Source of the DNA: Branchiostoma floridae
Lineage: Eukaryota; Chordata; Leptocardii; Amphioxiformes; Branchiostomatidae
NCBI RefSeq assembly: GCF_000003815.2
Contig: NC_049990.1
Location: forward strand, 17,498,532 to 17,562,531
Length of the DNA: 64,000 nt
Reading direction: 5' to 3'
Position numbers and translations under genes: made by a program. The notes beneath the pieces are model-generated. The model searched no databases. It was not told the DNA's origin and saw nothing but the letters and a program-made list of their open reading frames with translations. This document shows, one piece after another, positions 25,789 through 62,080 of the stretch; the stretch's first letter is position 1; each line of letters begins with the position of its first letter.

Positions 25789-25872
25789 AGAAATGCGAGG
25801 ATTACACGCTATACGACAAAACCACAAATGAATGCAGAAACATGTCTGCTGCAGTTGGAGTTGAAACGGAAA
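25789..25872 (+). CDS. Truncated lectin copy, linker exon
   Basis: Acceptor TTCCAG, donor AAA|GTAAGT. It encodes EKCEDYTLYDKTTNECRN… and equals gene 1 exon 13 except for a few bases (M for I). Confidence 0.75.
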
Positions 25873-30870: not shown

Positions 30871-30871
30871 G

Positions 30872-30879
30872 TATAAATA
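30872..30879 (+). promoter_or_regulatory. TATA box of gene 1
   Basis: TATAAATA lies 58-65 bp upstream of the ATG at 30937, which would place transcription start near 30905 and give a short 5' UTR. Confidence 0.6.
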
Positions 30880-30936
30880 CCGCCCCATCAAGAGCTGGTA
30901 CCTAGTTTTTTTTTGCAATACTTAAATCAGTCCAAT

Positions 30937-31374
30937 ATGGAGGGACTGTCACGATGGTGCATTCTCTGCGTGGTATTGCTACTGTATCTTGACACGTCCT
31001 TTGGGCAAAAACTTACGCAGCTGGGGAAAACAAACCTCCAGAATCCACGGACAGGAATAAAGACTGACATCGTGTTTGTCATGGACTCGTCCGGAAGTAT
31101 AGGCTCGTTTGGCTTCAGGCAAGAACACAGATTCGTCGGGAATCTTCTCAGAGAAATCAACGTATACGAGGACAGTGCCCAGGTGTCTCTCATCCGTTAT
31201 GCGTCTGGTGTAGATGTACTCATACATCAGATGGGCGGTTGGCCAGGCAATTCGAAATGTGAAATGATGCCTGCACTTCACAGTGTTTTTTACACGTCAG
31301 GAAGCACAAACACTGGTGAAGCACTGCAAAAGGCCCGTGAGCTGTTTCAAAGCAGTCGATCTGCTGCCAAGAAG
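30937..31374 (+). CDS. Gene 1 exon 1: signal peptide and first part of VWA
   Basis: The ATG is the first after the TATA box and opens MEGLSRWCILCVVLLLYLDT, a clear signal peptide. VWA then begins DIVFVMDSSGSIG, with the MIDAS DxSxS. Donor AAG|GTACGT, phase 0. Confidence 0.9.
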
Positions 31375-34300
31375 GTACGTATTTTACAGCTGACCATATC
31401 CTTTCAAACGTTTATGCAACATATATATTGCACCTTAAATGGGATGTAAGGTACATCCATAGTTCCACTGATGTTCTCACTGTCTCGGAAGCACCCCCAT
31501 GAAACTCCTTCAGCTTTTCCCCCGGACTTCCCCTTAACCCTCGCCGTACTAGCCTGGTATCCAGCCGTAATATAGCTTCCGAGTCGCTTCTCTCCTCTCT
31601 GGCAATGAGAGGAGAGAAGATACTCGGAAGCTATATTACGGCTGGATACCAGGCTATCGCCGTACTTCATCTGTGCCCCCGTCGTTCTTCTTTTCCCCCC
31701 CGTTTAATTCCGCTTTTCCCCGCCCTTCCGCTTGTCCCCCAATGGCCGCCGTCAACCCGAATTGCACGTAGTCAACACGAAAATCGTTCAGAAAGTAACA
31801 ATAACGGCTGCGCCACGAAACATGAAATAGCATATGCTATGGGAAACATTCCTGGCCACCTCTCTGCCCAGTGGCGTTGTACAAATCACGCGCAATCTTG
31901 AGAACACTTCTGCAAACTGTGGTGAGAAGCGGTCTGTAGGGCCCGAGATCTTCATACATGTATGTAACGTTATTCACTAAAGTACTGGTGTTGGGGGATC
32001 TATACCTGTGTTCACTTGTGGTGGGAGTGTCCTATGTATCTACTGGTGGTAGGGAACTCTATTCGCACTCATTTGTGGTGGTGACCCAGGTGTGAGGGTG
32101 ACTGAACTGATATATAGAATACCTGCTGTTGTTTGTGCTACTCTCCAAACAGAGGTTAGGCGCCGGCTGTTTTCTTATTACTTTTTAGGTGCTTTTATCG
32201 GGCTCTCTATTTTGTACCATTCTCTTGATGTCTCGTGTTAGGTCACAAAATCGAAAGCACGCTAAAAACGCCTAAAAAAAGGTATAAAAAAACACAGCCG
32301 GAGCCTAACCTCTGCTTGGAGAGTATGTTTGTGCTACAATATTATCAAATCGCCACACATTGCAGTAAAACATAATTCCACTATGGCTGGGTCCACTAGG
32401 CCTTTATCTCACATCACCCTCCATTAGTATACCCCTGTGGACAGGACCACAATATCCCTATATTATCCTGAACAGAACAGTCGCCCAGACTGCTGTTTAA
32501 TACTTGTTGTTACTTATTATGATGAACTGGCAATAGTTGTCACTGTTTGTAACGTTAATTGCAAGACCGGATAGTTTAGGTTGACTTGACGTTTCATCAA
32601 CCCTCAAAGTTGACAGCAATTCTCTCTGCGTGTTGAAACGGGTACAGATAAAGTCTATCACCACAGACGATTGTCACTTCCTTCCAGGTTGCGCGGGATC
32701 TCTGCTTCTCCACAGACCGCTTCTCACCACAGTTTGCAGAAGTGTTCTCAAGATTGCGCGCGATTTGTACAACGTCACTGGGCAGAGAGGTGGCCAGGAA
32801 TGTTTCCCATAGCATAGGCTATTTCATGTTTCGTGGCGCAGCCGTTATTGTTACTTTCTGAACGATTTTCGTGTCGATTAACGGCGGCCATTGGGGGACA
32901 AGCGGAAGGGCGGGGGAAAAGCGGAATTACACGGGAGGGGAAGAAGAACGACGGGGGCACAGATGAAGTACAGCGGGGGTCAAGGGGAAGTCCGGGGGAA
33001 AAGGTGAACGGGTAGGGGAAAAGCTGAAGGAGTTTCATGGGGTGGGAAGACAATGATAGGCAGGGTGGGTTTTAAGGCAACCCGTCTGCCGGCCTGCACT
33101 TGGTGTTTTTTTTTTAAGGTGAATGAAGGGTGTGCACTTCCTTCTACCTCTCGTCAACTGGCTCACTAAGTCCTACAGGGGCAACTGTATGCAACGTGTA
33201 AGATTGCCCAAACAGATGCAGGTTTGTTGCTCGGGGTTTCCGTCTCCTGGGAGGACTTCTGACCAAGGATGCAAGGAGTTCCTCCTACCCCTGGCTTGTG
33301 TGTCATGGCGGGTGCGTCATGCCCGAACATGCCCCTATGGCCTGTCACTGCCACTAGCCGCAATTAGGTACCCATTCAGAACCTGTGTTAACTGAGGAAA
33401 GTCGTGTAAAGTACCTTTAACAAGGGCAAAAAATCGGTGACACGGCAGTCGAATTCGAACTCATGACCTCTTGGACCTGAAACTAACGCGCTGCCCACGC
33501 AATTCCAGTTTCACTGATATTTAGGCAAGGAACAGTTTTACTAGGAATGTTGTGTACTAATGAATGGAAAAGTCCACCGTCATTCCACTGCGGTTCGTTG
33601 CTAGAGTGTAATTTCCCGTTGCTAGGTGCGTTCGACCAAGTATCGGGTTACAGTAGACCAATTTCTGAACTCTGAACTGACACAGTGGATCAGCGGCCCT
33701 CCTACACAGCACGTCACCGGAACCTACTGCGCCTGCGCAAAAAAGTATAGACATGCTAAACCTTGCTAAACCCCCGGTTTACTAAAGGGCCGCATTTAAG
33801 AAAGTGCGTGCGTATATAAGGGTAAAATCCCGTGTACGTTTTACATGAAACCATGTCTTTAACATATACTGTGCAACAAGCGGGATTTCAATGCAACGTT
33901 GACCAAACCAAGCCCCAAAACACCAGGGTTCGCGTAGGCGCAGTACGTTCATGTGACGTGCTCTCCTACACCATAGCGGGTCAGCCTGTAGAAATATCTT
34001 TGGCGCCAAATCATGTCAAATGCACGTCTGGTTGTAACACCAGGGTATAGGTCACAATTAAGGTATACATTTTTGGTCTATGAATTGCCTAAAAACCTCA
34101 ATAAAATCATTTGAAAAAAGATATAAAAAAGGCAATTTGGTGTTGCCCCCTTCTACCATCGTACCACATTTCAGGTCCTTGCCCGGAGATGACAGAAATG
34201 AATCGATTAGAAGATTTTACAGAAGAAGGAGGAGGAGAAGAAGAAGAATTATTAGAAAAAAAAACAATATATACCTATGGTATGCTTGGAATATAGATAA

Positions 34301-37300
34301 TGTTTCTCTAAGGATCACCAGCACGGGGGCTTGGCCCTGTTGTCGTTAACCGAGGAGACAAGGCGACGGACACAAAGTCTTCGGTCTCATGGTGTTTCTA
34401 TTCGTTATGTCTGTTTCTCCATCACAGCAAGTCACACGTTCGGTGGAACAGTAGTCACAAAGTACAGCGTAACATGTTCACAATTACGAAGAAGACTGTA
34501 GCACTGATAAATAAATAAAAATTAGATAGCTAAATAAAAACACCGATGAAGTACAGAAAGTCCATAGATATTCCTTGCTTGCCACCTCTGCTTGCAATTG
34601 GATACTGTTGGCCTTTCTGGAGTCAGGCTCTCGACGTCCTTACTAAATTATCAACAACTTTAATTAGCTTTTATCTTCCAAACGTTTCTCCCCTGTCCAG
34701 ACTTCGATAATGAATTTGAATTCCTCGATTTTGGTTGGTTCTAAAATATGCAAAACAGAAGTGACTTCGTATGTGAACGTCTTATAACAATTGTGGCAGA
34801 TGTTTTTCATGTATATTTGGTGTCTTGATTGCCTTTAAGAGTTTGATATAAACATAACTCAAAATTTAGATATCTATACAGGAACCAAAACTGGCATACC
34901 TCTAGGAAAAATTAGAATGCAGAAGGCATTGTTAATGGTTTTTTATCTTCAACATACATGTAGGTCCTGGTGCTGCTCACAGATGGTTACTCAAATGGAA
35001 ACCTAAGTCCTGGTCCTCAAGCAGCGGCACTGAGATCGTCGGGAGTGGAGGTCTTTGCCATCGGCATCGGAGGCTACAGATACTCTGAACTACAGGCTAT
35101 AGCATCAGTCCCATATGGATATCATATCTACTTTTATGATACCTTCAATGACTTCAATCAGCTTGCAATGCAAATTAGAGGAGGTGAATTTTTTTTTTCA
35201 AAAACAAATACGTGAATAGTGTCAAGAAGCGTTGATACTTCCCCATACACGAATACATCAACCATTGCATGGTAGTGTAGATGAGTAGGGTCACGTAAGC
35301 AAGCCATCTCACCAGTAACTTCCAACAGTGACCTATGTAAAATTAGGGTATAAGTAAGATAGTTAACAAGAAAAAAAAAATTTCGCATATTCTAACAGGA
35401 AGGTACAAAAAAATTCCGCCCCCAACAGATACCAAGTAGATGTTTTTTTGCTTGTTAGAAATTCGTCTTTCTTGTACACTTCCAAGAATTATCATTAATG
35501 AGATTCGAATAAAAATGATCATAATGACAAATAATTGTACATATTCCCTGCTGTGAAACCTTTTATTGAGACATTTTTTTAGTCAAAGCTATATGGCTTT
35601 CTGGTATGATGATGTAGGTTGTCCACCCATCATTGTTATTTTTAGATGTGACGCCGTCTAAAAACTAGTTTATTTATACTGTGATTTTCCGTTACAGATG
35701 CGCACCTGCCCCAGTTACTTTTTATGCACCAGAGCTTTTGCCCAGTTACCTGTTCCTCCAACGCTGACTGCACATGTGAAACCCTGTCTGGTAATTGGGG
35801 CTGTCATTGTAGGGCAGGCTTTAGTGGGTTATTCGGACAGTGTACAGGTACTGACACGTTTTAACTGTTTAGTTATGGCTTTTTGTTGAAGCCGGAGAGA
35901 AAGCTTTTGAAGAACACCGCTACAACTATTCAGCTACGCGTTGTATGAGCACTTGCTTTCAGAGAATGACGTACCGGTAAAAGGCTATCTATGATAAACC
36001 TACTTCGTTTTTTAGTAATCATGATGTAATAACCACGTAATACATGTTGTTTTGGTTGATTTGCCTAAATTTGGTATTCCTGTACAATCACATATACGCA
36101 ACATGACTTTTTTAAACTAGCTGTGGATATTGACCAATCATGTCATAATATTAGAATGGATTATAGATATCTAGCCATAAATTTGTATCAAATAACAGAA
36201 AATCATAATAATTTCAGAACAAACAAAAAAACATGGCAACTACATTCAATTTGTTTAAATCGAAATTACGGAAATTACAGAACATGCCTAGCCCTCGAAA
36301 ATGATGAACCCATCCATTATGATAAATGGTAGATATAACGCCAAACAAATGCCTTATGTACGTAATGACCATATATTGTAATCGCATTTTTGCTTTGCAC
36401 CCTCTTGGGGATAACTAATCATGAGATTGAGGGCTGTCCTACGCTTTGAAGTGTATTAAGCCAAAGCAAGTGAATTTTATGGATGGCATTCTCTACAGAC
36501 CGCAAAAGTTAAAAGAAAGGGTGAAAAAAATAGATGGCTAAATTTTGAAATTAGACACCATAAACGTTGCAACAAGAATAGGAAAAGCATATGGCAGCAC
36601 AGCCGTTTCTTCCTGTAGTCAAGATTTAGAAGCACACTAGTGAAGGAAAAGAGGAACTAGTGTTGTAGATTGGTACCACTTCCCAATTTGGCAACTTCAC
36701 TTATGGCTTCTTTATTCAGTGATATCATTACTGCTATTATTTTCCATGGAAAAAGACCACTGAATCGTTATATATGACATGTATTTTGCACAAACCCAAA
36801 CCTCCCTTTAGACTGAATAGGGCTCATTTTCTAATGAACATTTACTAATAGTGTTAGAGTACAGAGAGAATGCTTTGAAAAGCAAAGTCAAATGAAGCTT
36901 AATCAGAAGTTTTCGTTGCAACAATTTAAAAAAAATCAAATGTACGTCACCCACTGCAACAAGCTACAGTATATAGGTACACTACGTAGGTACACAGATT
37001 GATAAGACGGAGTACGTTACTTAGCACGTAGTATAGGCAAAATAAATTTACGACTGATTGGTGTACAGTATGTTATCAGCTGATTGGAATCAATATGCCT
37101 GTCGAATGTAATCCCAACAGAGTGCCCCATTGGAACATACAAGAGTGAACTCGGCCCTGCAGACAGATGTGACCAATGCCCACGTCACAGTACCACCCTA
37201 TCAACAAGATCAACACGTATCGAGGACTGTGTTTGTATGGAAGGGTACAACGCTATAGGAACTCTCCAGTATGGTGGGGTAAACTGTGAAAGTGAGTCTT

Positions 37301-40300
37301 ACGAAAATTCCTTAGTCCAATAGAATAGTTCACAGCTTTCTATGCCACCTGATAATGGACAATAAATTCCTGGAAAAATACCTTCTAAATTTCTAATCCA
37401 ATTCCATCGCTTATGTTCGATCCCACATGCTCACATATTATGTCCATGTTATTTTTTTTGTACGGCAAATAAAATTCATTTGATAAAATATGTCAAAAGT
37501 CGCTAGGTGACAGGCACATACAAGATGTAGAGACATGTAAGAAAGACTATGTTTCAGGACTTAGACCAATCAAGGAGGCCAACCACTTCTAAAAGCAGCG
37601 ATTTCAAGAAATACAACTAAATTGATTAGATTCGATATTGGAAATAGTATTTGCATAAAATTATGATTTCATTTAACCCTGGATATCTTTAAAACTATCC
37701 TGTATACAATGATTTGTGTCAACGAACTTGGAGAGTAGTTAGTGACATACATGTACCGAACCCCTACATGCATGGTATACATAGGAAAATATTTTTAGAC
37801 CTTAGAAATTCCTCCAATGATTGTAAAAGTCCGTTCTCTTTTCACACTACACTTGATTATATCATTTATACCCAAGACAATAATGTTCAGCTATAAAAAC
37901 CGGAATGTAAGTGACCCCGGCGTTTAAATGGCACGAATACTGATCTGGCGGGTTAAACATGTCTACCGCTTTTTATTCAAGTCATCATGTGCGATCAACT
38001 CGACCCCTCACCGAACGTAGTGACTGTACCTGGCACCTGCACAACAGAAAGATCGAGGTTCAAGGAAAACTGTCTACTCTCCTGTGAACCTGGATTCACC
38101 AGTACGAGTGGACAGGCAGTACTAGTGACCACCTGTGGTGCCTCATCGGTACCAGGCAGTACCAATGGCAGCTGGTCAGAATCTATTGATGACTTCAAAT
38201 GTCAAGGTAATAAGCAACTTATAGCCGTGAGATTAGCAACATGTTGTACAGACTGAACCAAAGCCCCCCCCCCCCTCAGGATATGGTGCTAAAGCAATGA
38301 CTACTAGAAGCCAATTGCAAGTTTAACCAGATTTGTGCAAGTTGGGAGTAGCTGAATATTCGCATAACCATCTGTCGGCCTAAAAAGAGAATATATAGTG
38401 TACGTTGTAGTCACAAGTTCTTGATTTACTACAAAATTGAGGTTACTTTGCTAAATTAAGAGGTCGGATCATTGACAAGCTGTGCAAGTAATTTCCTTTC
38501 CTACGTGAAAAAAGCCTGCTTATCGTAACTCGTTAGAAATGAATGTATTTCTATTATCTTTACCACTATAGACATAACACCTCCCAGTATAGTCTGCCCA
38601 AGTGATATCACAGCAGACAATGACCCAGATCTAGACAGTGCAGAGGTGAATTGGGCAGCACCCGTTGCTATGGACACCACTGGAGTTACACCACAGGTTC
38701 TGAGCAGTATCACACCGCCACAGAGGTTTACAATAGGAATACACACCCTAAACTACACGGCCATTGACGAAGAGGGGCTCGCGTCCTCGTGCAATTTCCT
38801 GGTCGAAATACGAGGTATGTGGATTTTTGCAAGTTTAAACATGCATCTAAAAGTGAAATACTTGAATTTGGACTAAAAGCTCTTACGAGGCACCTGCTTT
38901 TTGCCAAATTTACCATGCTAAAAATGTTGAAGTCAAATACGTCTGAAATTCTTTTGACTTATCGGAGATTTTAAAAATGATAGTCCAATGTTTAAAGAGG
39001 TATATATGGGTGCTCTCTGTATACAAAATTAATAAATCCCATGGACGGCTTTGATCATCACATTTAAAATGTTTCTTTGTGTTCAATGACATACATTTTC
39101 GTAGCCTTACTCCAGAAAGGTTTACCTTTTATCTTCGATAAAAGTAACGAAAGACTAAGATTGGTAAACTTTTACAGACATAACAGCTCCAGTTTGTGTA
39201 AGTTGTCCTGAAGACATCAATGAAGTCTCCAAGGACAGGGAACTTCCCATTCAGTGGGATGAGCCAACATGGACAGACAATAGCGGCAACATAAGCGATG
39301 TGTTCAGGTGAGTAGCAACAATCATTTATATCATCAAAACGGTTTCATGCAGACCATTGCTTGAAAAAAGACATCACTTTTGAGCACCTACGGGATCATT
39401 ACTTTTTTGGCAAAAGAAAGACTGGAACTTAAGCTACATGAGCTTAAACATTTATCAACAACCATACAATGCATATGTCTTCATGAAGTTCCATAATAGG
39501 CACTTTCTATGGTCTTCATTGTGCTGGGGTCAGAAAATAGTTCATTTTATTTGTTTGGATTAAATATGCTGTACCATGTCATACAGCTTAAGCTGCTATC
39601 TAGTTTAAACTCTCAATTTGGTACTTAAGTTATGTTTCTGTTCCATCTCGAGTTTTAAATGTTAGGGAGTACTTAGCAACTAAAGCCAATAAATTCAACA
39701 TAATGTCCGAGTTTAGGGGCCAGTTCACTTTTCCAGCTGCGGCAAGGGCATAGTAGGGAGCGCTTCATAAATAATTTATTGCCCTATGCCCTAGGTCCAG
39801 ATTGTGATCTCTGTTGTGAAATCTGTTGTGACCTTTTTACCTCTGTGTTTATAGATCAAATAATCCAGGGTCGCTGTTCTACTGGGGAGCTCCACAGCTG
39901 GTGTATTACATCGCAAGGGACAACGCAGGAAACAAAGGATTCTGCAACTTTACTGTGACAGTGAAACGTATGTTCTGCACTCATAGCATTTTTAACGAAC
40001 ATATTGCACAAAGGTAACCACTTGAAAGTGTGAAAATGCAGAACACAGCAAATTGATCTGTGACCAAAGAAGAAACCCGTCTAAATGACACGCTGATATA
40101 GAATATGTACATCGGTGTGCATATGATATTTTTCTTTCTTTCTTTTCTTTATTCTTTATTTCAGGTATAAAAAAGGTACACAAAAGATCGCGCATACATA
40201 TACATTTAAAACATCTACCTGTACAATAGACCATAGCAGTTGCGGAAAACCGTGTTTCTATAGTACATGTCTGAAGTCAACAAGTACTTGACAATAGATG

Positions 40301-43300
40301 GACATCTTTGTAAGAAAGAATAACATATCCTCCTTCGCCTTGATTCAAAAGTGTCAGTCGAGTGGTAAAAAAACATTGTACTGGCGCTACACCGCCGTGG
40401 CAAATTCATAATAATCCGGGAACAGTTATTGTATGCGACCCGGCACTTAGCGAGGACCCCCGCACTGACAGAGTTTAATAATTGCGCGCCAGATATATCT
40501 GGCCACAATACGTCATAAACAAGTTTTTTTATCTGGTGGAAAAGAAAGGGAGAACTTGCTATTTATACAATTAGCACGACTATACAGACTCTTCAGCTGC
40601 GCACGTACACAGTCGTCATCGCTAAGTGTTGGGTTTAGATGTATACCCAGATAAACAAATGAGGTCACATACTTCAGACACGCACCATAGAGTCTTACAA
40701 TTGGTGGTGGATACTGAAGTAACAGACGAGCGCATGGAAAATGCATAATATCGGGAACATTGCATTCTAAATGTTTTAAGAATGTTGCGAAACCTTAGCC
40801 TATTGGTTTTGTGAGTATGGAAGTACAAGTCATAATCTGTATTTATTGCTTGATATTCAAAGTTGCTATTTCTTTTCACTGCTTTCAGAACACGCCTGCC
40901 CTTACCAAGCCCCACCACAGAACGGTGCCGTTGCCTGTGACACGTGGTTAGGAGGACAGTTCTGCTCAGTGTCCTGTAACCGTGACTTTTAGTTTGATGT
41001 TTAATTTTCTTTTCTTTCTATTAGAACACACCTGCCCTTACCAAGCCCCACCACAAAACGGTGCCATTGCCTGTGACACGTGGTTAGGAGGACAGTTCTG
41101 CTCAGTGTCCTGTAACCGTGACTTTGACTTTGCTCGTGAGCCAGAATCCCTCTACTACTGCAGACAGGAGGCTGAGGGAGGAACGTGGTCTCCATTTTTC
41201 CCCAGCTTTCATGAGTTCATCTTTCCCTGGCCGGACTGCACAAGTAAGTACAGACTATATGTTAGAAGGTTAACGTTGCTATCATTATAGATGAAAATGT
41301 GACCTATTTTGACACAAGAAGACAATGTAATTCGTAATGAAAGCTACATATATCTATAAATGATTTAACTAGATTGTTCAATGACAGGAATAACAAGCTT
41401 CATAATTCAAAATTAATGTGAAAGTCTCCTGCCAGTGATCAAGAAAATTACTGAATAGCGCAACAGATCTCTCTTTTTTCCCTTCGTCTTTTGTTTGTTT
41501 TGCGTTGTTGGTCTGATGTTCAACTTTCCTGAATGTTTCATTGTGTATTTGTGCCAACTCCTGCTTTCGGTCTGCTTACTCTAGGACTACTGCTTTGCAA
41601 CAATGTCATCTATGTGTTTGATAAAATAGCAATGACATAAGGCCAAAATGCAGTCGTCAATCTACTAGAAAATATGAAATCCAAAAACATTTTCCAAGTT
41701 CGCGAAATCCATGTTTAATTCACTCATTTTTCGAAGCTGGTTGCCAGCTACTCGTAATGAAGTTCACAACAGAGACTTAAAACGAGGGCTCGAGCTTAGT
41801 ATACCTTTTGCCAGACATGATAGGTACAGAAACAGTGCTATTCCATACTTGTCCACACTCTTAAATACTGATTTATAGCCTGTTTATAACGTCACATCAC
41901 TACTACATGGAATCTTGATTACTGCTGATGTTAGCCTTTGTGTGTATCAATTATTGTTAAATATGTTATGCTGTATATATCAAGATGTTTTTAAGACTAA
42001 AACTAACTTAATTCAGCCAGTTTTACAGCATTTTATAAAAGGCTGCAACGTTGTTTTAGTATGTCCATGTATGTATGTATATGTATGTTTTGAATAAACC
42101 ATTGATATAAATCAAATCTAGTTGTTGTCTGTTATGCTGCTGCTTGGTTGTGAATAACTTCCTTTTAATTCAAACTTAATGTTTTCATCGCACACGTACA
42201 GGGAAAAACGCACCCGGGGCAGTTATTGGTCTTCAAGTCCAGTACTACACAAGCGACTGTGCTGTCGACACAGAAGAGATCCGACAGAACTTCATTGAGC
42301 AGGCCCAAATGATGAACTTTTTGGCACAAGGTTTTTGTATGGACGAGGCGGAATGTAACATAGACAACGTTGAAGTCTCGTGCGGTACACCTGCCACACG
42401 TGGAACAAGAAGTGCTGAAAATATCATCAACATAGACTTTGATGCCATCGTTACCTGGAAGGAGGTTTGTTTGATAATATCGTAACAATTTGTAATTTCT
42501 AAATATTCTTCTTATGTGTAAAATTCTGAAATACAGCAGATGTACCAAAATGAACTTCTGAAGTTAGGTTTCTTATTTTCGGGAATGTTTATTGTTTGTT
42601 CCTCTAATCTATATCCTGGTCTTTATGGCGGATGTTGACTGATACGGGATATTGTACAACTAAATCTCTATGTTTGTTTTATAATAGGTCACCAGAAAAT
42701 GAGTGTGTTCTTTTCATTAAATAAATGCGTATTCCTCTCTTCTAGGCGTCTTCCCTCAACGTATCTTCAGTCCAGTCTGTAACAGCGCAAATGGACCTTT
42801 TTGTGTCGGACATCGAAACCACTTTGGCCAATGGAGGTTTCAACATTTCAGTCGGCAACCTCACCATTTCCACCATCCCTGGTTCCTTCAACAAGATCAC
42901 AGATACAGTACTGATGTGCAGCCAGGGACATGTGCTCAAAGATTCGACTTGCTGTAAGTTGCAAAAACCGTAATGCTATTTCTTGTCTGTTAGCTAGTAT
43001 TTACATACCAGACGGTACTTCTGTCATTACATTGGCCCATACCAACACCCGAGTGACATTACTGTATGTGGGTTGTATTCCCAGTGAGCTGCCCAGCTGG
43101 AACCTTTGCGAATGGAACATCGTGTCAAGACTGTCCACCAGGGTTCTACCAGGAGGAAGAAGCTCAAACATCATGTCTGCCTTGTCTGAACGGAACGACA
43201 ACCTACTATCCAAGGGCCGTGGCAGCTGCAGAATGCAGAGGTGAGTTTGCCAATTTCAATTGGAATCACACGTGCGGTAAATGTACCGGCACTGTGTCTT

Positions 43301-46467: not shown

Positions 46468-46540
46468 CTATGCTGCCACTTCTTTCGCTTTTGCTGTTTC
46501 TGCTTGCACTTCCGTTTCAATGCTGTAAGGCGAAATCTTC
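46468..46540 (-). CDS. Gene 2 exon 15: cytoplasmic tail and stop
   Basis: Acceptor ATTTCAG, phase 2. It reads KISPYSIETEVQAETAKAKE then VAA-stop. No ITAM, ITIM or YxxΦ motif. Confidence 0.7.
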
Positions 46541-49500: not shown

Positions 49501-52500
49501 GATAAAGTTCTGTCGAATCTCCTCTGTGTCGACATTGCAGTCAAAAGAATAGTACTGAAGTTGGAGACCAATCGCTGCTGCTGGTTGCATTCTCCCTTTA
49601 ATGTTGGAAACAGGGCAACAAAATTACGTTATTAGCAAAGTAAATCATTGTGCAAGATTAGTTAACTACATTAAACATGAAATCCTGAAATATAACTACT
49701 AATTATAAGCAAAACAATCAACAGATTTCATGTCATTAGTTTTGCAATTTTGTGATAGAAGTTTATTGGGAAACATGCTTTACGTTTTTGTCTCAAGTGA
49801 CTAGTCAGCAAGGTAGTAAGTAAAAGGTTGAACTTGTAAGATACAAAAACATAGTTTATCAGCATTTTTCATGGATAAAACAAAATAGAATTTAATTGTG
49901 CTTTGAAATGTTGAAAAAGATATAAGTAACCATAACCCACAAAGTTTAAGCTTGTATCCTCTGTCATTGATTTGATTAATTTAAATTTTACAATAAGAAA
50001 TACTTACTTGTGCAGTCTGGCCAGGGAAAGATGAACTCATGAAAGCCGGGTAAAAATGGAGACCACGTTCCTCCCTCAGCCTCCTGTCTGCAGTAGTAGA
50101 GGGATTCTGGCTCACGAGCAAAGTCAAAGTCACGGTTACAGGACACTGAGCAGAACTGTCCTCCTAACCACGTGTCACAGGCAATGGCACCGTTCTGTGG
50201 TGGGGCTTGGTAAGGGCAGGCGTGTTCTAATAGAAAGAAAAGAAAATTAAGCATCAAACTAAAAGTCCCGGTTACAGTACAAAGCAGAACTGTCCTCCTA
50301 ACCACGTGTCACAGGCAATGGCACCGTTCTGTGGTGGGGCTTGGTAAGGGCAGGCGTGTTCTAATAGTAAAGAAAAGAAAATTAAGCATCAAACTAAAAG
50401 TCCCGGTTACAGTACAAAGCAGAACTGTCCTCCTAACCACGTGTCACAGGCAATGGCACCGTTCTGTGGTGGGGCTTGGTAAGGGCAGGCTTGTTCTGAA
50501 TAGCCATATAAAACAACATTTGTCACTAAGGAGCAGATCAATAGCAACATAAAAATCCAGTTATGTAATATCTAAAACATTACGTTAAGCTCTAACGAAA
50601 ACCTTGACCTTTCAGGGCGCAGAAAAAATTACAAACACAAGGCTTGGCATAAGCATGATTTTAATACTTTTTTGCAAAATTTAAGATGCTGAACTAATAG
50701 TCAAGAAATTAAACCCAAATTCGATTTTGATGTATAGATGGGGTTTTCAAGGTAAACGTAACGTAACTACTCACGTTTTACGATCACAGTAAAGTTGCAG
50801 AATCCTTTGTTTCCTGCGTTGTCCCTTGCGATGTAATACACCAGCTGAGGAGCTCCCCAGTAGAACAGGGACCCTGGGTAATGTGACCTGTTCATATATG
50901 CAAACAGAATTGAAATTCTGGAAGGTACGCATAACAGATTCAACACACAGCACACAACTGATGCAACACACAACAGAAAACAATTGATGATATAATACAC
51001 ATAGTTTTTAAAACATGGTCAAGAAAGTACGGAGTTAAGACTCCTACGAAGCAGACACGTGCATAGTGTATACTATTGATATTTCTAAAACATCTTACCT
51101 AAATATGTCCGTTATGTTTCCACTGTTGTCTAGCCATGTCGGTTCATTCCAATCAATGGCCAACTCTCGATTCGCAGAGAACACAGACACGTCTTCAGGG
51201 CAACTTTGGCACACAGGGTCCATTGAGTCTAGAATGTCAGACGTACAATAATCAGTGCAGTCTAAAACGTCTTTTCAGAAACGAAGCGACCTTAACATTA
51301 CTGTACTGTCAAGTTGTAAACACAAGAATTTTGGCCTGTACGACATTTTCAAACATGTGTTCCGAGTATCGTTCTGTATCCATGCTATGCATTCTTAGTC
51401 ATCATTGTATGAGTTTGGATTTTTTTTAAATACAAAATATACATTTCCCTTACAACAATTTTACAAATATGTATGTGTAGATAGACGAAAACGGTGTTAC
51501 TGCACTATATTGTACTCCCAAACGGTTAATGAAAAAAGGTAAAGTTTCATTATCGACTAAGTTAGTGGATACCTTGACAATCCATGTCAGTGATAGGCAC
51601 TGTCCATCCTCCATTGTGTTGTCCAGCAGATGCAGAACAGGTAGTCTCCATGACATCTGGCCCATTCTTATGACTGTATCCAGGTATGCAGAAGAACGTG
51701 CAGTTATCCAGAAAGCTTGCCTCACTCAGTGTGCAGTTCTCTGGTTCAACGACGATATCTGGCGGTGGATCCAGCTGATTGCAGGTGATGGCTGATAAAA
51801 CATCAAAGCTAAACTGAGCCCAAGTTCAATATGAGATATCATGAACTCCATTTAGTTTAATAATTTCCATGCACATGCATTTACTGTAATTCTTGATTTT
51901 GAAGACAAAGTGAGTATGCTTGACACTCTATAGAGCTCATCCTCTCTTCCAAACTCTATATGTACACTGATAACAACTGATCTGTTCAAAGTATTCGAAA
52001 GGGTCGATCACATGACCGTCCAGTATCTAGTTGACTTGGGATTCTTTATCTTTAGTTTTTATGTCAAACAGTCGACAAAGAGTGCTTTAACTCTTCTATC
52101 TTGGACCTCTAGTTTCATGTCAAAAAGACGACAAAGCGTGCTCTACCAGAGATGGTATCAATCTGATCCAGGGGGGATCCTGGGTCAAATAATTAACGGA
52201 AAATGCTCATGAACTCTCGCAAGTGCAAATTACTTCAAGCTTGTTTTAATAAATCCCCTTCCCCGCCTGAACTATTCGTTATTGATGAACAATCAATCCC
52301 TAGAAACAGTAGTTCACATCAATTTACTTGGAGTAACAATACTCACACATTTAAGGAGAGAGAGCTACATTTAACTATGTAAAAGTTGTCTTACCTGTAC
52401 AGTTCACATCAAGAACTGATGGATACCACTCCCCTTCGTAAGAACAGACAGCCGTTGGGTTTCCGCTCAGGGTGAATCCAGTAAAGCATGAGGCTGTGCA

Positions 52501-55500
52501 TATACTCCCCGCAGCAACTGGTTGGGATGTACATACGGAAGGAGACACATCACCACCGGCTGGTTTCTCGAGAGGAAAACAAATGATTTCTGGAAAAAAG
52601 AAAAAAAACTATTAGTCAACATAACTCAATATCTTAGAAGTTACACTAAAGAAAATAATGTTTAACATTTGTCACCCTATGCTGTTAGCAGTTACCGCAC
52701 AGCCGTTACTCTTGCTGTACGTGATTGCACTGAATAGTAGTTCGCACTATTCTAGATATTGCTAGATATAATAATCATTTATTTTAGGTAAAATCACCAC
52801 AATCTACGTTCTGGGACGTTAACTTGAAAATGAAAAAGCTGCCTTTAAACCCTTTGGCTGTCAGAGTTTCAGACCAATAAAATGCTCTCAGTGCCAGGGT
52901 TTGACCGCTGACCTCCGGAAGAAAACCCTCGAACAAGGTCGAAGCTCTAACTTCCGGGTTTCGCGAGCGTAATGCTGTTACTTCAGTGGAACACCCTATC
53001 CCGGTTACCTGTATCCGAATAAATTAGGGCTTGGTAGAATGCATGGACCTTGCTCCAATCAGCAAACTATATTTGAACCATTCAGCTGGCATGGATGCAT
53101 ATATCAGCTCATAGAATTGTGACATATACATACACATGTATGCATGTACACTAACTATAGTAATTATATAGACTTAAATAGAAGCGCAATCATATTGCAA
53201 TTAAAAAGTACATCGTATTCTTGCTCAAAATATCGTTGTACATACCTGGTCATAATGATTTTTATCTGTTGTATCTATATGGAAAATATTGTAAAATATG
53301 AAGGATGATTTAGTCAAAGATACAGTACCGGTGACTAATCGCATTGTAAGGTAAAATGACTTACCTTCACACCAAGTTTCTGTGCCGTTTGTCCACTGCC
53401 CAGTGTGCTCACAAGTTCTGGTTTCTGGTCCAACTCGACGGAAACCAAGCTGGCAGGAGAAAATGCATGTTGACTGGAAGCGGTTTCCTTCAGAACATGT
53501 CTTACTTCCATTATTCGGCACCGGTAGATCTGGCTGGCAGGTGATTTCTGCAAATAGATATTACATTCAAATCTGACAGTTTTGTCTAACAATAAAAAGT
53601 GTTCAAATTAACTTTCCCTTTGTAAAGTATAAGATAAAATGATATATTGTAGAAAGTAGCAGTATGATAATGATATTAAATAGCAAGTTTTCTTTGTTTC
53701 CCACATGTAATTCATATGTTGTATAAACGTGAATGCATGTTGTTGCATTTTTATGTTGGAAAATAGTTGTTTTTGATAATACTGAATCCATTGTATTTCT
53801 TAGTTGTTAGATTCATAAATTCTGTTATCATAGAAAAATGATCACAATCATGTTCCAGCCATTTAGGATATGAGTCAGCCAAGAAATCCTTCCGGAACCC
53901 ACTGCATGATTAACAACGTATTTGTTTTTCTAGCTGTTAGAGTTTGCACAGTAATCATACACTCAATGTTGAAATTCATTTTAAAAAATGTGGTATGTTG
54001 CATTTTTTGCTCTTGTTAACGCATTTTCCTTTTGCATTTGTTATTGATCATTGGATGCAAATGTACTACCTGCTCAAGTATTTCCTTCACGAAAATATTA
54101 ATACCATAAAAGTGACTTTAGTTAGTTCAGCCTACACCAAATTAACCCTAGTGCAATGAATGTATAATGTGTAATGCTGCAAAGGTTGTTACACTTACTG
54201 ATACACCTTGGCATGAGTCCACTCCATGTTTTGTCAAGCTGACAGGTCAAGGACGTTGTTCCTTCCAGCTCATACCCTTGGTTGCAGGAAAACGTCACAG
54301 TATCACCATAATACTGCCCATTAGTAGCAACACCATTGGCCAATGCTGGCAACGCTGAACAAGTTATTCCTGAACAGAGGGAATCAGAAGAATTCATACA
54401 TCAATAATGTTGCGATAGATTGATGGCTACCGCCCGTATGACAATCATGGGCAATGAATAAGTGACTATTTTTTATACTGTAATAATAGAAAATGACAAT
54501 CAATCGATATACAATGTACATTTTGTCGGAGTCTATAGATATTGCAAAGGACAGAGAGGGATGGAAGGGAAGGAAAGCACATGTGACCAACTACTACCGA
54601 CGTATTCAAGCGGTTATAGAGACGACGACAACAACAAGCATTCAAGGAACATCGCCCTATATTGAGAAGGCAACTATGGGCAATGTCATATGAAGTTTGT
54701 TAAAGTTGTATGTGCACTATAGTCTGTCTACAGTACTGTCTACCAGCTTGAGCTAACTCCTGACTCAAACATTCAAAAGTACTACAGAATGTAGAACCAA
54801 AACCTGCAGAATGTTCTTGAAATGCTTACTAAACCCGCCTGTTAAACAAATGCATCTAGATATGGATTGGCCCATGGTAAGAGAAATATTCGCGATTAAC
54901 ATGCATTTTACGATACTTTTCAGTCATGAGCCAATAAACATTTTCTGTTCCATCATTTCCGTCCATTCAGCCAACACATGTCCAACTCAATCATCCTCCA
55001 TTTTAGACTGCCAAACCCCAAGCCAAAAGGCAACCCTTCTCCTACCGCACCATCAATCTATGGTGCACTTTTCCATCAAACATACCAAACATTAAATCTC
55101 TGTTCAGGCTCTCAAACTTCAAAAAGGCAATCCACCATTTGTGCGCAATTTAGTTTAATAGTAAAATGTTTTTTGTTATCTGTATAACCTATGATGAATA
55201 TGTATAAGTATGTTCGTTCACATTGCAACTTGTTTGTCTGATTGTACATTTGTCTGAAAAATTAGCCCTGATAGGGCTAAAAGGTATCTCAATAAACCAA
55301 TAACGGAGGGGGCCCCGAATTCGCCACTGTACCCCGAATTCGCCACTTTACTTTTTTTAATTTTCTACACTGAACAGGAAAGATTCTGATATTACTTTTG
55401 TGGTTAATCTTAACATGGAACACCAAAGTACAATATGCATACACAGGCTTCTTCATATCTACAAAAGTGACGATCCATGGAGAAGAAAATGGAAAGTAGG

Positions 55501-58500: not shown

Positions 58501-61500
58501 CATTTTTTTTAAATTGAATTATTTAGTCATTTTTAAGTCGCAGTAAGTTATTATAATTAAATACCACTATCTTATTGCATATCGACCTTCATTGACCAAA
58601 AATATGGCGTCGTTGGGTGATGAGAACTCATTGAAAATCTGAGCGCTGTACGCGTTGCTGGGGTAGCCATTATTTCAAATTTTTGGAACGCATGCGAAAA
58701 TGACGGATGAGTCCCGAACGCTTTCGGAGATATCATCACTTTTTCAAAACAGGTTTCGATTTGTGAAGGCGCGAATCAGATTTAAGTCACTCGGAGACCT
58801 CACGTGTTCGGAAATTACCGAAAGATTAAAAAAAAAACGTAAGCGGCTCGATTCTGCGCTGATTTATTGCGGGGTACACTAAATCAAGGAGTCCGTTTGC
58901 GGTATGTTTGCGCTTTCTTTATAAACGCTGAAAGTACGAAATAATGGTAGAAATGAGATAATATGATGAAGCCAATGTCAATGCCGTACAGATTTATTAC
59001 TCATTCAGAATATGTCCAATTAAAATAGTTTAAAACTCGCATTGGGTGCCTTTACACCCCTGTCATATTGCGCGAAAATCGATCGAACGAGTCTGCGAGC
59101 TGTAATACGTGTTCGGCTGTAATACGTTCGGTAATTTCTCGATTTGCGCGCGATCTTTATGAGGAATGTCTTGTCTTAACTCGTCCGAGTGCAAGAGGTG
59201 GCGCTATGTCATGTGAGGCTTATTATCATAAAGCGATCGCTCGAGCCTCGTTTATATGTGACAGCGACGGTTTTTAGGCGAACAAAACGCGCGATCTTCT
59301 ATCGATATTAAACTCGGCCGACCTGTCAGCGATCGCGACGTACGCCCGAAATTCGTGGATAATGTGACAGGAGTATTAATAACAAATTTCGGTGCACAGA
59401 GAGCATCGGGTGACTCCTAAAATCGCCAACAATCACTAAAAATCGCGCGCTGATCGAGAAAACTCCGGACGTGTTACTGCCGAAAATGTTATATAGAGCT
59501 CGCAGACGCGTCGATTTTCGCGCAATGTGACAAGGGTATATAGCATACTGGGTTTGTTTTGGCTTGGGGTAGAGCCTCGCGAACCACAGTCGCCGAGCGC
59601 CCCCTTTATTCCAGGGTAACTACTGCATGCTATTTACGTTTGGGAACAAACGTCAAGACGCTTGAAAGTGTTATGGAAGCTTCCAGTGCCTACATCACCG
59701 TGTTATATCCGTGTTATATTGTTATATATACACTCGGCACAAAAAGTTTGGAATATCAACTTTGGTATATCATATTTCCGTTATTTATGCATCAATTTCA
59801 ATGTATTATATACAAATAGAAAGCTTGTGTGATTTTCTTTCCTATGATATCAAACTTATTATGATTGTATACACATGAAACGAGCACAAGGCCTGCTTAC
59901 GTGAGTGGGTCACGAAAAAAAAGTGCCCAAATTCCCCTATACTTCTGTTCAACACTGCATCGTCCTGTTGATATTGGCGCGTGTGTCACTGGTTCAATCA
60001 ATCCTCTTTTCACCTCACATTTTGTATACGGAACATTGTGAGGTTTTAGCACACTTGAGTAGAGTTCATCTGCCCTTTCGATAGTTGGATGGCAGAATCA
60101 AAGCGTGGATGCGGCAAAGAGAACCGTACGCTGACAAGGCAAGAGTAACTTTCGGCATTTTGTGGTGGAGGCAGCGTCATGGTGTGGGGCGGTATAACCA
60201 CCATAGGGTAAACAAGACTCGTCATCATTCCAGGCAAATTAATGTGGTGACATATAGGGACACCATCCTCCATCCAGTAGGAACATGCTACCTCTTCAAT
60301 ATTGGACCAAATGCCATTCTGCAAGATTAAAACACCAGTCCACACAGAGCAAGGACCATTGGATGCTGGAGCACAGTCTTAGGGTGGAATAGCCTTCCTA
60401 CGGCTTATGGCTAGCACTCGATTGATCACCTCTTGCCATGGTTCAGATTTTTTGCTCGAATAAAGAGTAATAGTAATTGATTGACATGTCCTGTTTATTC
60501 AACTTGCCTTCATTCACAAGTCAATACTGACGGAAGAAAATGAGCAGAATGGAGTGATTGACTTTAGTAGGGTAATTTTGGCACTTTAGGACCCCCTGTA
60601 CGTAAGCAGTACTAGTCCTCATTCCGTGAATTTACACTCATTAAATACTCTACTTAGATATGCTAAAAAGAAACTTTGATGCTCTGTATACCAAACGTTA
60701 GGTGATAAAAGGATTGATTGAATCATTGTCACCCGCGGCCATAACAACGGTTGAACCGGACGATACAGTTTTGAATAGAAACGGGGGAATTTGGGCACTT
60801 TTTTTGGTGACCCACTCACGTTAGCAGGCCTAGTGTATGTTCCATGAGTTAAAAATGATAATGAGTTTGATACCATTGGAAAGAAAATCATGCAAGCTTT
60901 CTATAGATATATAATATATTGAAATTGATGCAGAAACAACATAAATATGATCAACCGAAGTTGATATTCCAAATTTTTTGTGCTGAGTGTATATGAATAG
61001 CAGTTGCTGAAAAAAAATATATGCTCATGTGTAATTACAGTCGGCAGGTTAAAAAAAATAGCATATAAATATCTTACTATGACATGACGGCTGACTTCCT
61101 GACCACCTATGATCGGACCGACAAGTCCTCGATGAGCTGCCTCGCAGTTCGTAGCCAGTCTGACAGCTAAAGGTGACGGTTGTGCCGTAGGTATTGCCAT
61201 TGTTTCTGATATAGCCGTATGCTGGTGCAGACAGCCGTGTACAAGTCACCCCTGTAAGGTAAACATCATGGTATCTTGACTCGGTTTGTAACAAAGAAAC
61301 GAGGTTGTTTTAGGAGAAACGAGGTCACTTTCATTTTCTGAATTAAAATTTTTAAATCGTCGGCCTTTCGACAAAGCGCTTCCTTATCCTAATGGCAACA
61401 TTATTATATTCGATAGCCGGTTGTTTTAACAACTTAAGTTTCTGGTAAGGGTTAAACCTACTAAGGCGTTAATTAGAGTTATGGACTATCAAATTTTTTG

Positions 61501-61513
61501 ACTGTGTGTGTGT

Positions 61514-61549
<36 letters not shown>

Positions 61550-62080
61550 GCGTGAACTAGTTGTATCCTTAAAAAAAATAACCACACCGTAGTTTGGCTA
61601 TGGTCCTGGTGGCAAGCATTCATTGATCAATCTCTAGCAGCGAAATTTTGTGTAACTGTGGGACTACTGGTACTAGTGCTCTGGCTTGGAAAGAAATTTC
61701 GATCCAAACTGAAAAAAAATCTAGTCCACAATACATTCTCAGCAATACTTACTTGTTTGGCAGCAGCTTCCTTCGTATCCCACCACGCAGTTACAGCCGT
61801 AGGTCTGGAGACTTCCGCCGTTATAACAGAACCTGTTGCACTGTCTAGACTGCCAAGAAGACCCGTGGCATGAACCGCCGCATGACGCTTGTTGAATGAC
61901 TCTTCTCTGCCTTGACTGTGTTCCAGAGTTGCCGCAGGAAGCCGAACACGATGTCCAGCTTGACCAAGACGACCACCTGCAGTTACTAGAAGAGCAGGAT
62001 GGACCACACGAAAGAGAAGACTTGGCCCCGAAAACTATGACAATTATGAAAAGGACTGAACAGTAGAGTGGAGTCCCCAT
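46468..62080 (-). CDS. TSP1-sushi-HYR transmembrane protein, SVEP1-like core (gene 2)
   Basis: Fifteen minus-strand exons join to 2691 bp, 896 residues plus stop, with all phases closing. Order: signal peptide (about 1-20); TSP1 with WSSWSSW and CSASCG (about 30-85); EGF-like; five sushi (to 423); one HYR over two exons (424-504); sushi (505-577); central region (578-732); ephrin-receptor-like (733-784); short linker (785-805); stalk; transmembrane helix (846-867); basic stop-transfer KCKKKR and a 23-residue tail. From the HYR on, each exon has a partner of the same phase in gene 1 (exons 7-13), but gene 2 ends in a membrane anchor instead of a lectin and begins with TSP1 instead of VWA. It is likely a cell-surface recognition or adhesion receptor. 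A TATA box lies upstream at 62127. Confidence 0.85.
46833..47034 (-). CDS. Gene 2 exon 14: stalk and transmembrane helix
   Basis: Acceptor GCTTAG, donor AAAAG|GTTTGA, phase 1-2. Helix LLLGGALICVVMVAAGFVMA followed by LKCKKKR. Read-through instead of splicing would add 43 codons to 46685, a possible alternative tail. Confidence 0.8.
47550..47742. repeat. (CA)n-rich microsatellite
   Basis: CACACA and ACGC units with interruptions in a gene 2 intron. Confidence 0.9.
48215..48277 (-). CDS. Gene 2 exon 13: linker with two cysteines
   Basis: Acceptor CTCTAG, donor GAAG|GTAAAG, phase 1-1. EFCKQGTQFDRTTATCRNVS, the counterpart of gene 1 exon 13. Confidence 0.8.
48527..48682 (-). CDS. Gene 2 exon 12: ephrin-receptor-like module
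   Basis: Acceptor GCCACAG, donor GGG|GTCAGT, phase 1-1, same length (156 bp) as gene 1 exon 12. SCPAGTYTNTTVCKDCPMGF. Confidence 0.9.
48904..49108 (-). CDS. Gene 2 exon 11: central region, part 2
   Basis: Acceptor TACACAG, donor GCT|GTAAGT, phase 0-1. GDFNISSGNITIVPIPDSF … CSHGQVLKNSTC. Confidence 0.85.
49336..49595 (-). CDS. Gene 2 exon 10: central region, part 1
   Basis: Acceptor ATTAAAG, donor AAG|GTCAGT, phase 1-0. EEIRQNFITQMRQLNFLAQG, FCMDADCNIDNVEVSCG. Confidence 0.85.
50008..50226 (-). CDS. Gene 2 exon 9: sushi domain
   Basis: Acceptor CTATTAG, donor CAA|GTAAGT, phase 1-1, 219 bp. HACPYQAPPQNGAIACDTWL. Almost identical to gene 1 exon 9, unlike its neighbours. Confidence 0.9.
50227..50495 (-). 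pseudogene. Two truncated tandem copies of the sushi exon (gene 2)
   Basis: The acceptor plus the first ~100 bp of exon 9 is repeated twice upstream (period 134-135 bp), each ending at the same GACTTTTAG break seen in gene 1. A small deletion (CTGCTTTGTACTGTAA) puts a stop in frame. They cannot encode the full domain. Confidence 0.8.
50775..50887 (-). CDS. Gene 2 exon 8: HYR domain, second half
   Basis: Acceptor TGAACAG, donor AAAC|GTGAGT, phase 2-1. VYYIARDNAGNKGFCNFTV is identical to gene 1. Confidence 0.9.
51099..51228 (-). CDS. Gene 2 exon 7: HYR domain, first half
   Basis: Acceptor ATTCTAG, donor TTTAG|GTAAGA, phase 1-2, 130 bp as in gene 1. MDPVCQSCPEDVSVFSANRE, DNSGNITDIF. Confidence 0.85.
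51573..51791 (-). CDS. Gene 2 exon 6: sushi domain
   Basis: Acceptor TTATCAG, donor CAAG|GTATCC, phase 1-1. ITCNQLDPPPDIVVEPENC, CTFFCIPGYSHKNG, final DMDCQ. Likely the counterpart of gene 1 exon 5. Confidence 0.85.
52395..52589 (-). CDS. Gene 2 exon 5: sushi domain
   Basis: Acceptor TTCCAG, donor ACAG|GTAAGA, phase 1-1. IICFPLEKPAGGDVSPSVC, CTASCFTGFTLSG, GEWYPSVLDVNC. Confidence 0.85.
53365..53547 (-). CDS. Gene 2 exon 4: sushi domain
   Basis: Acceptor TTGCAG, donor GAAG|GTAAGT, phase 1-1. ITCQPDLPVPNNGSKTC, CIFSCQLGFRRVG, GQWTNGTETWC. Confidence 0.9.
54199..54369 (-). CDS. Gene 2 exon 3: canonical sushi domain
   Basis: Acceptor TGTTCAG, donor TCA|GTAAGT, phase 1-1. ITCSALPALANGVATNGQYY, TFSCNQGYELEG, TWSGLMPRC. 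Confidence 0.92.
54955..55300 (+). mobile_element. LINE 3' end in gene 2 intron
   Basis: The frame FSYRTINLWCTFPSN, then SLFRLSNFKKAIHHL and a stop at 55151-55153, has the WxxxP…FK pattern of CR1/Jockey-type ORF2 C-termini. A short 3' UTR has a TAGCCCTGATAGGGCTA hairpin and AATAAA near 55292. Confidence 0.55.
55303..56189. mobile_element. TIR DNA transposon with TA target duplication
   Basis: The left end ACGGAGGGGGCCCCGAATTC, then GCCACT, is perfectly inverted at 56162-56189. TA flanks both sides. The left end carries a second copy of CCCCGAATTCGCCACT. The interior frame at 55477-55704 is not a recognisable transposase. Confidence 0.75.
57578..57870. mobile_element. TIR element, GGCACAACC ends
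   Basis: Left GGCACAACCCGTCGTACGTG and right CACGTACGGTAGGTTGTGCC are inverted over about 28 bp; 293 bp in all. The open frames inside are products of GC-rich sequence. Confidence 0.6.
58474..59052. mobile_element. TIR element, AAGGCRCCCAATGCGA ends
   Basis: AAGGCGCCCAATGCGA at 58474 is inverted with TCGCATTGGGTGCCTT at 59037-59052. About 580 bp, no recognised frame. Confidence 0.5.
59056..59538. mobile_element. TIR element abutting the previous one
   Basis: Left ACCCCTGTCATATTGCGCGA, then AAATCGA, and right TCGATTTTCGCGCAATGTGA, then CAAGGGT, are inverted; complementarity extends inward past GTCTGCGAGCT. It starts four bases after the previous element ends. Confidence 0.6.
59731..60989 (+). 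mobile_element. Degraded Tc1-like transposon
   Basis: CACTCGGCACAAAAAGTTTG at the left is inverted at the right end; TIRs extend about 250 bp with mismatches and TA flanks both sides (59729-59730, 60990-60991). The plus strand keeps pieces of a Tc1 transposase in broken frames: GGGSVMVWGGITT, VTYRDTILHPVG, then SPHRARTI. Stops and frameshifts make it inactive. Confidence 0.8.
61078..61251 (-). CDS. Gene 2 exon 2: canonical sushi domain
   Basis: Acceptor CTTACAG, donor CATA|GTAAGA, phase 1-1. VTCTRLSAPAYGYIRNNG, TFSCQTGYELRG, RWSGSQPSC. Confidence 0.9.
61503..61552. repeat. (TG)n microsatellite
   Basis: About 50 bp of GT units in gene 2 intron 1. Confidence 0.9.
61753..62080 (-). CDS. Gene 2 exon 1: signal peptide, TSP1 and EGF-like module
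   Basis: The ATG at 62080 opens MGTPLYCSVLFIIVIVFGAK, a signal peptide; the codon two places upstream is TTG, so this is the first ATG. TSP1: CRWSSWSSWTSCSASCG with tryptophans suited to C-mannosylation. Then CYNGGSLQTYGCNCVVGYEG, EGF-like. Donor CAA|GTAAGT, phase 1. Confidence 0.9.

Follow-up and report, generated by a model that had tools for sequence, protein, structure and literature searches.

A predicted polydom-type gene cluster in the lancelet Branchiostoma floridae with a putative chimeric lectin gene and exon-limited homogenisation between inverted paralogs

Polydom relatives and a lancelet gene cluster

Vertebrate polydom (SVEP1) begins with VWA, Ephrin_rec_like, sushi, two HYR and a further sushi domain, a part called domain X below, and another Ephrin_rec_like repeat (PMC12549020 and PMC10281526, in their available parts), and it bears a pentraxin domain and a long sushi tail that holds the Tie1 site (PMC10281526). 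According to the accessible text of the latter account, the protein is cut on secretion into Pol-N and Pol-C, of which Tie1 binds Pol-C only. The polydom-like and polydom-related proteins of Nematostella are described, in the available portion of their account, as short, with an EGF-Sushi-HYR-TKE core to which ends such as TSR or Ig are attached (PMC12549020). Here we describe two convergent predicted genes in a 64-kb stretch of Branchiostoma floridae DNA (contig C12:17498532-17562531, hereafter the window), namely gene 1, which would run from a VWA domain to a C-type lectin domain, and gene 2, which would run from a TSP1 domain to a transmembrane helix. Our reading, to which we give a probability of about 0.75, is that both belong to a polydom-derived cluster, that gene 1 is a chimera and gene 2 an older paralog, that gene conversion acted on their exons 8 and 9, and that one product is secreted and the other anchored in the membrane. 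The shared cassette, the mosaic and the exon-limited homogenisation can be followed in the DNA and in the models predicted from it.

A single genome was analysed (513,431,437 bases in 431 contigs). The locus sequence taken in covered 200 kb around the window and then 8 kb and 40 kb farther upstream, and every exon of both genes was compared by tblastn with the first 264 kb of it. Gene models were built from the sequence by combining splice-site scores (from generic matrices), open frames and phase chaining; domains were called with Pfam, and the proteins of genes 1 and 2 were aligned with BLASTP. Positions preceded by a contig name refer to that contig and all others to the window. Among the literature matches listed, no title or abstract opening names this locus.

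Genes 1 and 2 sit in a cluster of at least five predicted genes of the polydom/SVEP1 type. The complete polydom layout is present upstream of the window in g4 (minus strand, C12:~17424171 to at least 17382074), which encodes VWA, EGF, Ephrin_rec_like, two sushi, HYR, HYR, sushi, X and three Ephrin_rec_like domains, followed by EGFs, pentraxin (Pfam Pentaxin, 2.2e-18), EGF, sushi, EGFs and sushi. This order, from VWA through pentraxin, sushi and EGF, is the one given for polydom in the accessible part of PMC12549020; the domains through the third Ephrin_rec_like repeat and the pentraxin are Pfam calls, and the EGF and tail sushi domains were assigned by eye. The predicted gene g5 (plus strand, C12:~17454136-17458717) has EGF, two sushi, HYR, HYR, sushi, two Ephrin_rec_like and Ig, of which Pfam calls the first HYR (22.8 bits at a cut-off of 21.7) and the Ig, the remaining domains coming from exon reading. 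In g3 (plus strand, from C12:17463955), a first exon that is TSP1-like and EGF-like and three sushi domains precede exons 5-12 of the core, which share 83-99% protein identity with gene 1. Genes 1 and 2, g3 and g5 have in common a sushi-HYR-Ephrin_rec_like core without pentraxin (g5 over the traced part, from EGF to Ig).

The original prediction had likened the order of the core to the N-terminal part of SVEP1/polydom, and both the Pfam order and the comparison with g4 agree with this. Gene 1 has the N-terminal VWA followed by Ephrin_rec_like and then sushi, HYR, HYR, sushi and Ephrin_rec_like; it lacks the EGF array, the pentraxin and the long sushi tail, since exon 13 leads to lectin exons and a stop. 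Gene 2 has a TSP1 front in place of VWA and one HYR in place of two. Unlike polydom/SVEP1, gene 1 thus ends in a C-type lectin domain and gene 2 in a predicted transmembrane helix, and the pentraxin and the sushi tail with the Tie1 site are missing from both (compared with the available text of PMC10281526).

A core with foreign ends is already known; the predicted lectin and membrane ends, the traceable parents and the putative exon conversion appear to be new here. An Ig end occurs both in Nematostella polydom-like proteins and in g5, and the accessible part of the Nematostella account mentions neither C-type lectin nor transmembrane ends, and describes neither a chimera whose parents were identified nor conversion of exons (PMC12549020). 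Another lectin-bearing relative lies in the same lancelet genome at C14:9765200-9777287, with sushi, HYR, HYR, a sushi resembling exon 9, X, three exons of Ephrin_rec_like type, EGFs and two lectin domains. The latter are encoded by single exons and carry EPN and WND, whereas in the lectin domain of gene 1, which shares 37-40% identity with them, an intron interrupts the coding sequence ahead of EPN. Because of this identity and the different exon structure, the two C14 domains did not serve as a recent source, and the lectin end of gene 1 was probably gained separately. Among its best PDB matches are the IgY receptor (8e-51), the mannose receptor (6.6e-35) and collectin-11 (3.1e-23); the mannose receptor family and collectin-11 are not known to have a VWA, HYR or sushi core.

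Gene 1 as a mosaic of two neighbouring types

Gene 1 (plus strand, 15 exons, 30937-44686, 1004 amino acids) changes its closest relative within intron 4. From 30848 to 37297 it matches g4 at four exons with 78-90% nucleotide identity, in blocks that barely exceed the exons, and from 37684 to 45543 it matches g3 in blocks of 75-91% identity that include much of the introns, which leaves 37298-37683 as the candidate breakpoint interval on the plus strand. The front consists of exon 1 (30937-31374; signal peptide and first half of VWA, 69% identical to g4 exon 1 in amino acids), exon 2 (34964-35183; second half of VWA, 86%), exon 3 (35698-35847; EGF-like by eye, 76%) and exon 4 (37121-37291; Ephrin_rec_like by Pfam), the last with an acceptor score near 0, yet g4 has the same exon at 91% identity. 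The first core exon past the breakpoint, the sushi-like exon 5 (37982-38206), is 91% identical to that of g3 in amino acids. Synonymous differences between gene 1 and g4 amount to 61.8/225.6 (0.34) in the four front exons versus 188/231 in six core exons (5, 7-10 and 12). Between gene 1 and g3, the synonymous divergence per site (dS) is 0.07-0.48 per exon and 0.20 in sum over 11 exons.

The plainest reading of this pattern is that gene 1 is a mosaic of two parents of different type that lie nearby, with the switch within intron 4. The genes of the cluster would then keep one cassette (sushi, HYR, sushi, domain X, Ephrin_rec_like) with varying fronts and ends, and a 5' end of g4 type, with its VWA, EGF and Ephrin_rec_like exons, would have been joined in intron 4 to a core of g3 type with its C-type lectin, giving rise to gene 1. 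As a rule, exon shuffling is deduced only long after it has happened, whereas here the putative chimera, both parental types and the switch point are found within ~180 kb of one chromosome, and thus stages in the assembly of a chordate extracellular protein may be datable and testable in lancelet populations.

A TSP1-sushi front near the core of gene 1 was sought as well and rejected, as exons 1-5 of gene 2 have no tblastn match at E 1e-3 between 28 and 37.7 kb of the window. Separately, a reverse-oriented copy of window positions 38644-39635 (94.3% over 1001 columns), covering part of gene 1 exon 6, exon 7 and introns, is present inside the g4 intron that adjoins VWA exon 2 (C12:17417434-17418430). 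The presence of this copy in g4 shows that DNA has passed between the two loci.

Exons 8 and 9 and the weighing of alternatives

The original prediction stated that exons 7-13 of the two genes correspond one to one in order, phase and nearly in length, and the rebuilt models reproduce this, with lengths in gene 1 and gene 2 of 130/130, 113/113, 219/219, 263/260, 208/205, 156/156 and 84/63 bp and equal phases. The correspondence extends beyond these exons, as gene 1 exon 5 pairs with gene 2 exon 6 (51573-51791, minus strand). The proposed alignment of the two proteins bore out the relationship: 306 of 549 aligned columns are identical (E = 0.0).

Judged by their synonymous sites, the predicted genes 1 and 2 diverged long ago as paralogs, with exons 8 and 9 as the exception. 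In six other shared exons dS ranges from 1.28 to undefined. Synonymous differences number 7/70 in exons 8 and 9 taken together versus 117/160 in exons 5, 7, 10 and 12 (Fisher p = 5.8e-20), or 158/221 with exons 11 and 13 included as well (p = 1.4e-20). No such contrast exists between gene 1 and g3, with 9/69 in exons 8 and 9 versus 27/167 (p = 0.69). The tracts of similarity between genes 1 and 2 run from the acceptor to the donor, or a few bases beyond it, in gene 1 exon 8 (39855-39967, second part of HYR 2) and exon 9 (41025-41243, sushi-like), whose counterparts on the minus strand in gene 2 are exon 8 (50775-50887, 92.8% nucleotide identity) and exon 9 (50008-50226, 97.7%). The exon 9 tract takes in partial tandem copies of the 5' part of that exon, beyond which the intron between exons 8 and 9 cannot be aligned between the two genes.

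Because the similarity stops at the splice sites, the pattern points to exon-limited gene conversion; the homogenisation itself is seen in the sequence, and the mechanism is our inference. Conversion tracts would end at the exon edges because homology ends there, the introns having already diverged. Gene 2 would then be an older inverted paralog with a TSP1-sushi front and a membrane anchor, and exons 8-9 of gene 2 and of the lineage of gene 1 and g3 would have been homogenised later, with conversion halting at the exon ends. One segment would thus be kept alike across inverted paralogs while their ends diverge.

Several observations weigh against parts of this reading. The dS of the front exons between gene 1 and g4 is uneven, from 0.20 to 0.60, and their introns are unalignable, so the front of gene 1 could be a patchwork in its own right. 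Beyond the breakpoint, gene 1 exon 6 (38572-38814), which encodes HYR 1 by Pfam and exon comparison and has no counterpart in gene 2, is still 78% identical to g4 in nucleotides over 203 columns, so the switch in intron 4 is not perfectly clean. This exon is less diverged from g4 than the six other core exons (32/57 versus 188/231 synonymous sites, p = 0.0002), which may mean that this exon was transferred earlier or that gene 2 lost it. Some variants in gene 2 exons 8-9 are common with gene 1 and others with g3, which leaves the direction of conversion ambiguous. The TSP1 exon of gene 2 shares more identity with exons on C1 (47%) and C4 (up to 52%) than with that of g3 (39-42%); in g3, Pfam makes no TSP1 call and the reading is based on 34-42% identity to gene 2 exon 1. 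Because the C1 and C4 exons are closer, it stays conjectural that gene 2 and g3 inherited one TSP1 front. Finally, Q and D, as read by eye, replace E and N in the gene 1 lectin domain at two canonical calcium-ligand positions, which makes sugar binding uncertain.

Among the alternatives, it is unlikely that, although the core genes are real, an end belongs elsewhere, with the transmembrane exon, or less probably the VWA exons, being part of another gene or no exon at all. The weakest call is gene 2 exon 14 (46833-47034, minus strand), with splice scores of 0.4 (acceptor) and 4.3 (donor) and a codon score that is equalled or exceeded by 2.9% of 1170 overlapping open intronic stretches, and no homolog supports it because a genome search with this exon gave no other match. 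The phases nevertheless chain through it, and a stalk, a helix (Kyte-Doolittle 2.62 over 19 residues) and a basic stop-transfer stretch, KCKKKR, are all in place. Moreover, the VWA exons of g4 have the same order and phase and lead into a polydom body, and in g3 this core is again followed by lectin exons, albeit beyond a transposon. Of the swapped ends that had been predicted, Pfam recovers the VWA and a C-type lectin domain, in which EPN is present, in gene 1 and TSP1 in gene 2, and the transmembrane helix is the part that stays least secure.

Quite improbable is the original view that a single inverted duplication produced two partners, one soluble and one in the membrane, with mutual recognition or a shared ligand; the convergent order, the shared core, the one secreted and one membrane end and the near identity of exons 8 and 9 all speak for it. 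The closest core relative of gene 1 is g3, not gene 2, and genes 1 and 2 therefore did not arise as sisters in a single recent inverted duplication; the idea of a simple pair, recent and inverted, was rejected on the same ground (dS of 0.07-0.48 with g3 against at least 1.28 with gene 2). In addition, three further genes carry the cassette, and conversion requires no functional pairing. What is retained from that view is common descent and an exchange of modules, now traced to neighbouring genes.

Selection in place of conversion would account for a likeness of exons 8 and 9 that ends at splice sites, yet we give it very little credence, as synonymous sites are alike too, in these two exons only, and the block that covers the partial, apparently non-coding exon 9 copies is also 92.8-95.6% alike between the genes. 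Least credible of all is that gene 1 and g3 represent two haplotypes of a single gene or that the chimera is a misassembly: lancelet assemblies derive from heterozygous animals and N runs occur in the neighbouring transposon region, but there is no N between 30 and 62 kb of the window, the fronts of the two genes differ altogether, and synonymous divergence (0.20 for gene 1-g3, 0.34 for the gene 1-g4 front) is above the ~4-5% expected of alleles.

Predicted products and neighbouring features

Under the preferred reading of a chimeric gene 1 and an older, partly converted gene 2, the product of gene 1 is most likely a secreted matrix or recognition protein and that of gene 2 a surface-anchored cousin. 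The introns used in both models are all GT-AG, and the phases chain with zero in-frame stops. In gene 1, Pfam calls VWA, two HYR, Lectin_C and two Ephrin_rec_like and gives no Sushi, the two sushi-like exons having been placed via alignment to gene 2 and g4. The VWA domain retains a DxSxS motif of MIDAS type (DSSGS at residue 50, in exon 1). Beyond the exons described above, the gene 1 model comprises exon 7 (39178-39307; first part of HYR 2, with Pfam), exons 10 and 11 (42202-42464 and 42746-42953; the two halves of domain X, with no Pfam match in the first), exon 12 (43085-43240; Ephrin_rec_like, with Pfam), exon 13 (43432-43515; a linker with two Cys), exon 14 (44137-44409; first part of the C-type lectin, with Pfam and PDB matches) and exon 15 (44566-44686; the EPN and WDD motifs through the stop, with Pfam). 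The lectin call has an E-value of 1.1e-18 (Lectin_C). A secreted product of this kind might serve in the matrix or in recognition or bridging, with VWA and lectin holding two ligands on a rod-like core.

Gene 2 (minus strand) starts at 62080 and has 14 exons and a candidate tail exon ending near 46468, which together would encode 896 amino acids, in which Pfam calls TSP_1, four Sushi, one HYR and one Ephrin_rec_like. Exon 1 (61753-62080) encodes a signal peptide, TSP1 and, by eye, an EGF-like domain; exons 2 (61078-61251) and 3 (54199-54369) encode sushi domains, exons 4 (53365-53547) and 5 (52395-52589) sushi-like domains and exon 7 (51099-51228) the first part of HYR, all from the model and Pfam. 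A hidden first HYR was considered for gene 2 and rejected, since gene 1 exon 6 has no match at E 1e-3 in the 344-bp intron 6. Domain X is divided between exons 10 (49336-49595) and 11 (48904-49108), followed by Ephrin_rec_like in exon 12 (48527-48682, with Pfam) and a linker with two Cys in exon 13 (48215-48277). Hydropathy peaks at residue 1 (2.12) and at residue 847 (2.62), the latter in the tentatively assigned exon 14; with it, the product would have the signal peptide and single C-terminal helix of a type I membrane protein. The least certain element is the candidate last exon (46468-46540, codon score -0.07), which would add a short cytoplasmic tail.

Domain X (42202-42953 and 48904-49595) is ~155 amino acids long, has six Cys in gene 1 and has no Pfam match; relatives lie elsewhere in the genome at C175:128720-129190 and C5:7460029-7460478, each in a single open frame. 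A basic site occurs at the same aligned place of the domain, as RSKR in gene 2 (exon 10), RHKR in g4, RGTR in gene 1 and RETR in g3. By analogy with the cut in vertebrate polydom, cleavage may take place at this site, which is no more than RxxR in gene 1 and g3, and the anchored gene 2 protein would then possibly be cut in domain X. Because the shared core corresponds to the N-terminal part of polydom, the known Tie1 contact would not be inherited, and, if expressed, the VWA-core-lectin and TSP1-core-transmembrane proteins would be natural variants of that part, which itself did not bind Tie1 according to the available text of PMC10281526. It is a speculative and rather doubtful extension that exon-limited conversion keeps the HYR2-sushi segment of exons 8-9 alike as a contact surface between the two proteins or for one ligand, with polydom donating fronts and neighbours donating lectin, Ig or membrane ends.

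The partial copies of the 5' part of exon 9 lie ~136 bp apart (40889-41025 and 50226-50520 in the window, C12:17471431-17471588 in g3). The gene 1 copy (40889-40995, plus strand) includes an acceptor, and the gene 2 copies occupy 50227-50520 on the minus strand by DNA comparison. In each of genes 1 and 2, one acceptor among the copies nearly matches the true one (5.4 in gene 1 and 5.2 in gene 2 versus 6.0), and since its use would introduce a stop by read-through, it could act as a poison splice site.

Two TSP1-like first exons lie ahead of g3 (C12:17460622-17460882 and 17463955-17464240), both with an arginine run after the signal region, and would be alternative first exons of g3 or part of a neighbouring gene. 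A cluster of TSP1-EGF-like exons is present at C4:5030425-5109145, and gene 2 exon 1 matches several of these at better E-values than it matches g3.

The body of g3 is separated from its exons 13-15, which encode the linker and the C-type lectin (25789-27024, plus strand, by tblastn and DNA comparison), by a 50.7-kb DNA transposon whose right half occupies positions 1-25581 and whose left end, at C12:17473452, is outside the window. Between exons 12 and 13 of g3 there are 50,661 bp, bounded by an inverted 71-bp terminus that is identical on both sides, and the insertion is exactly at the splice donor of exon 12. The flanks, CAGAGGTT and CAGAGGTG, are alike at 7 of 8 bases, i.e., an imperfect 8-bp target duplication, and minisatellite arrays lie just inside the ends. 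The score of the exon 12 donor is 11.2 in gene 1 and drops to 3.1 in the interrupted g3, and for this reason g3 is probably broken in this assembly. The terminus has at least 40 near-complete and at least 18 partial matches in the genome. Among the matches listed there are 15 facing pairs, the g3 pair being the longest and 13 being spaced 6.9-20.5 kb; the flanks read for 10 of the other 14 pairs include 5 exact 8-bp duplications, one with 6 bp and 4 with none exact. Six open frames of the transposon gave no Pfam match at E 0.01, among them one of 952 amino acids (C12:17494464-17497319, minus strand) that by eye resembles a DDE-type transposase with OTU-like and Cys-rich CXC-like parts.

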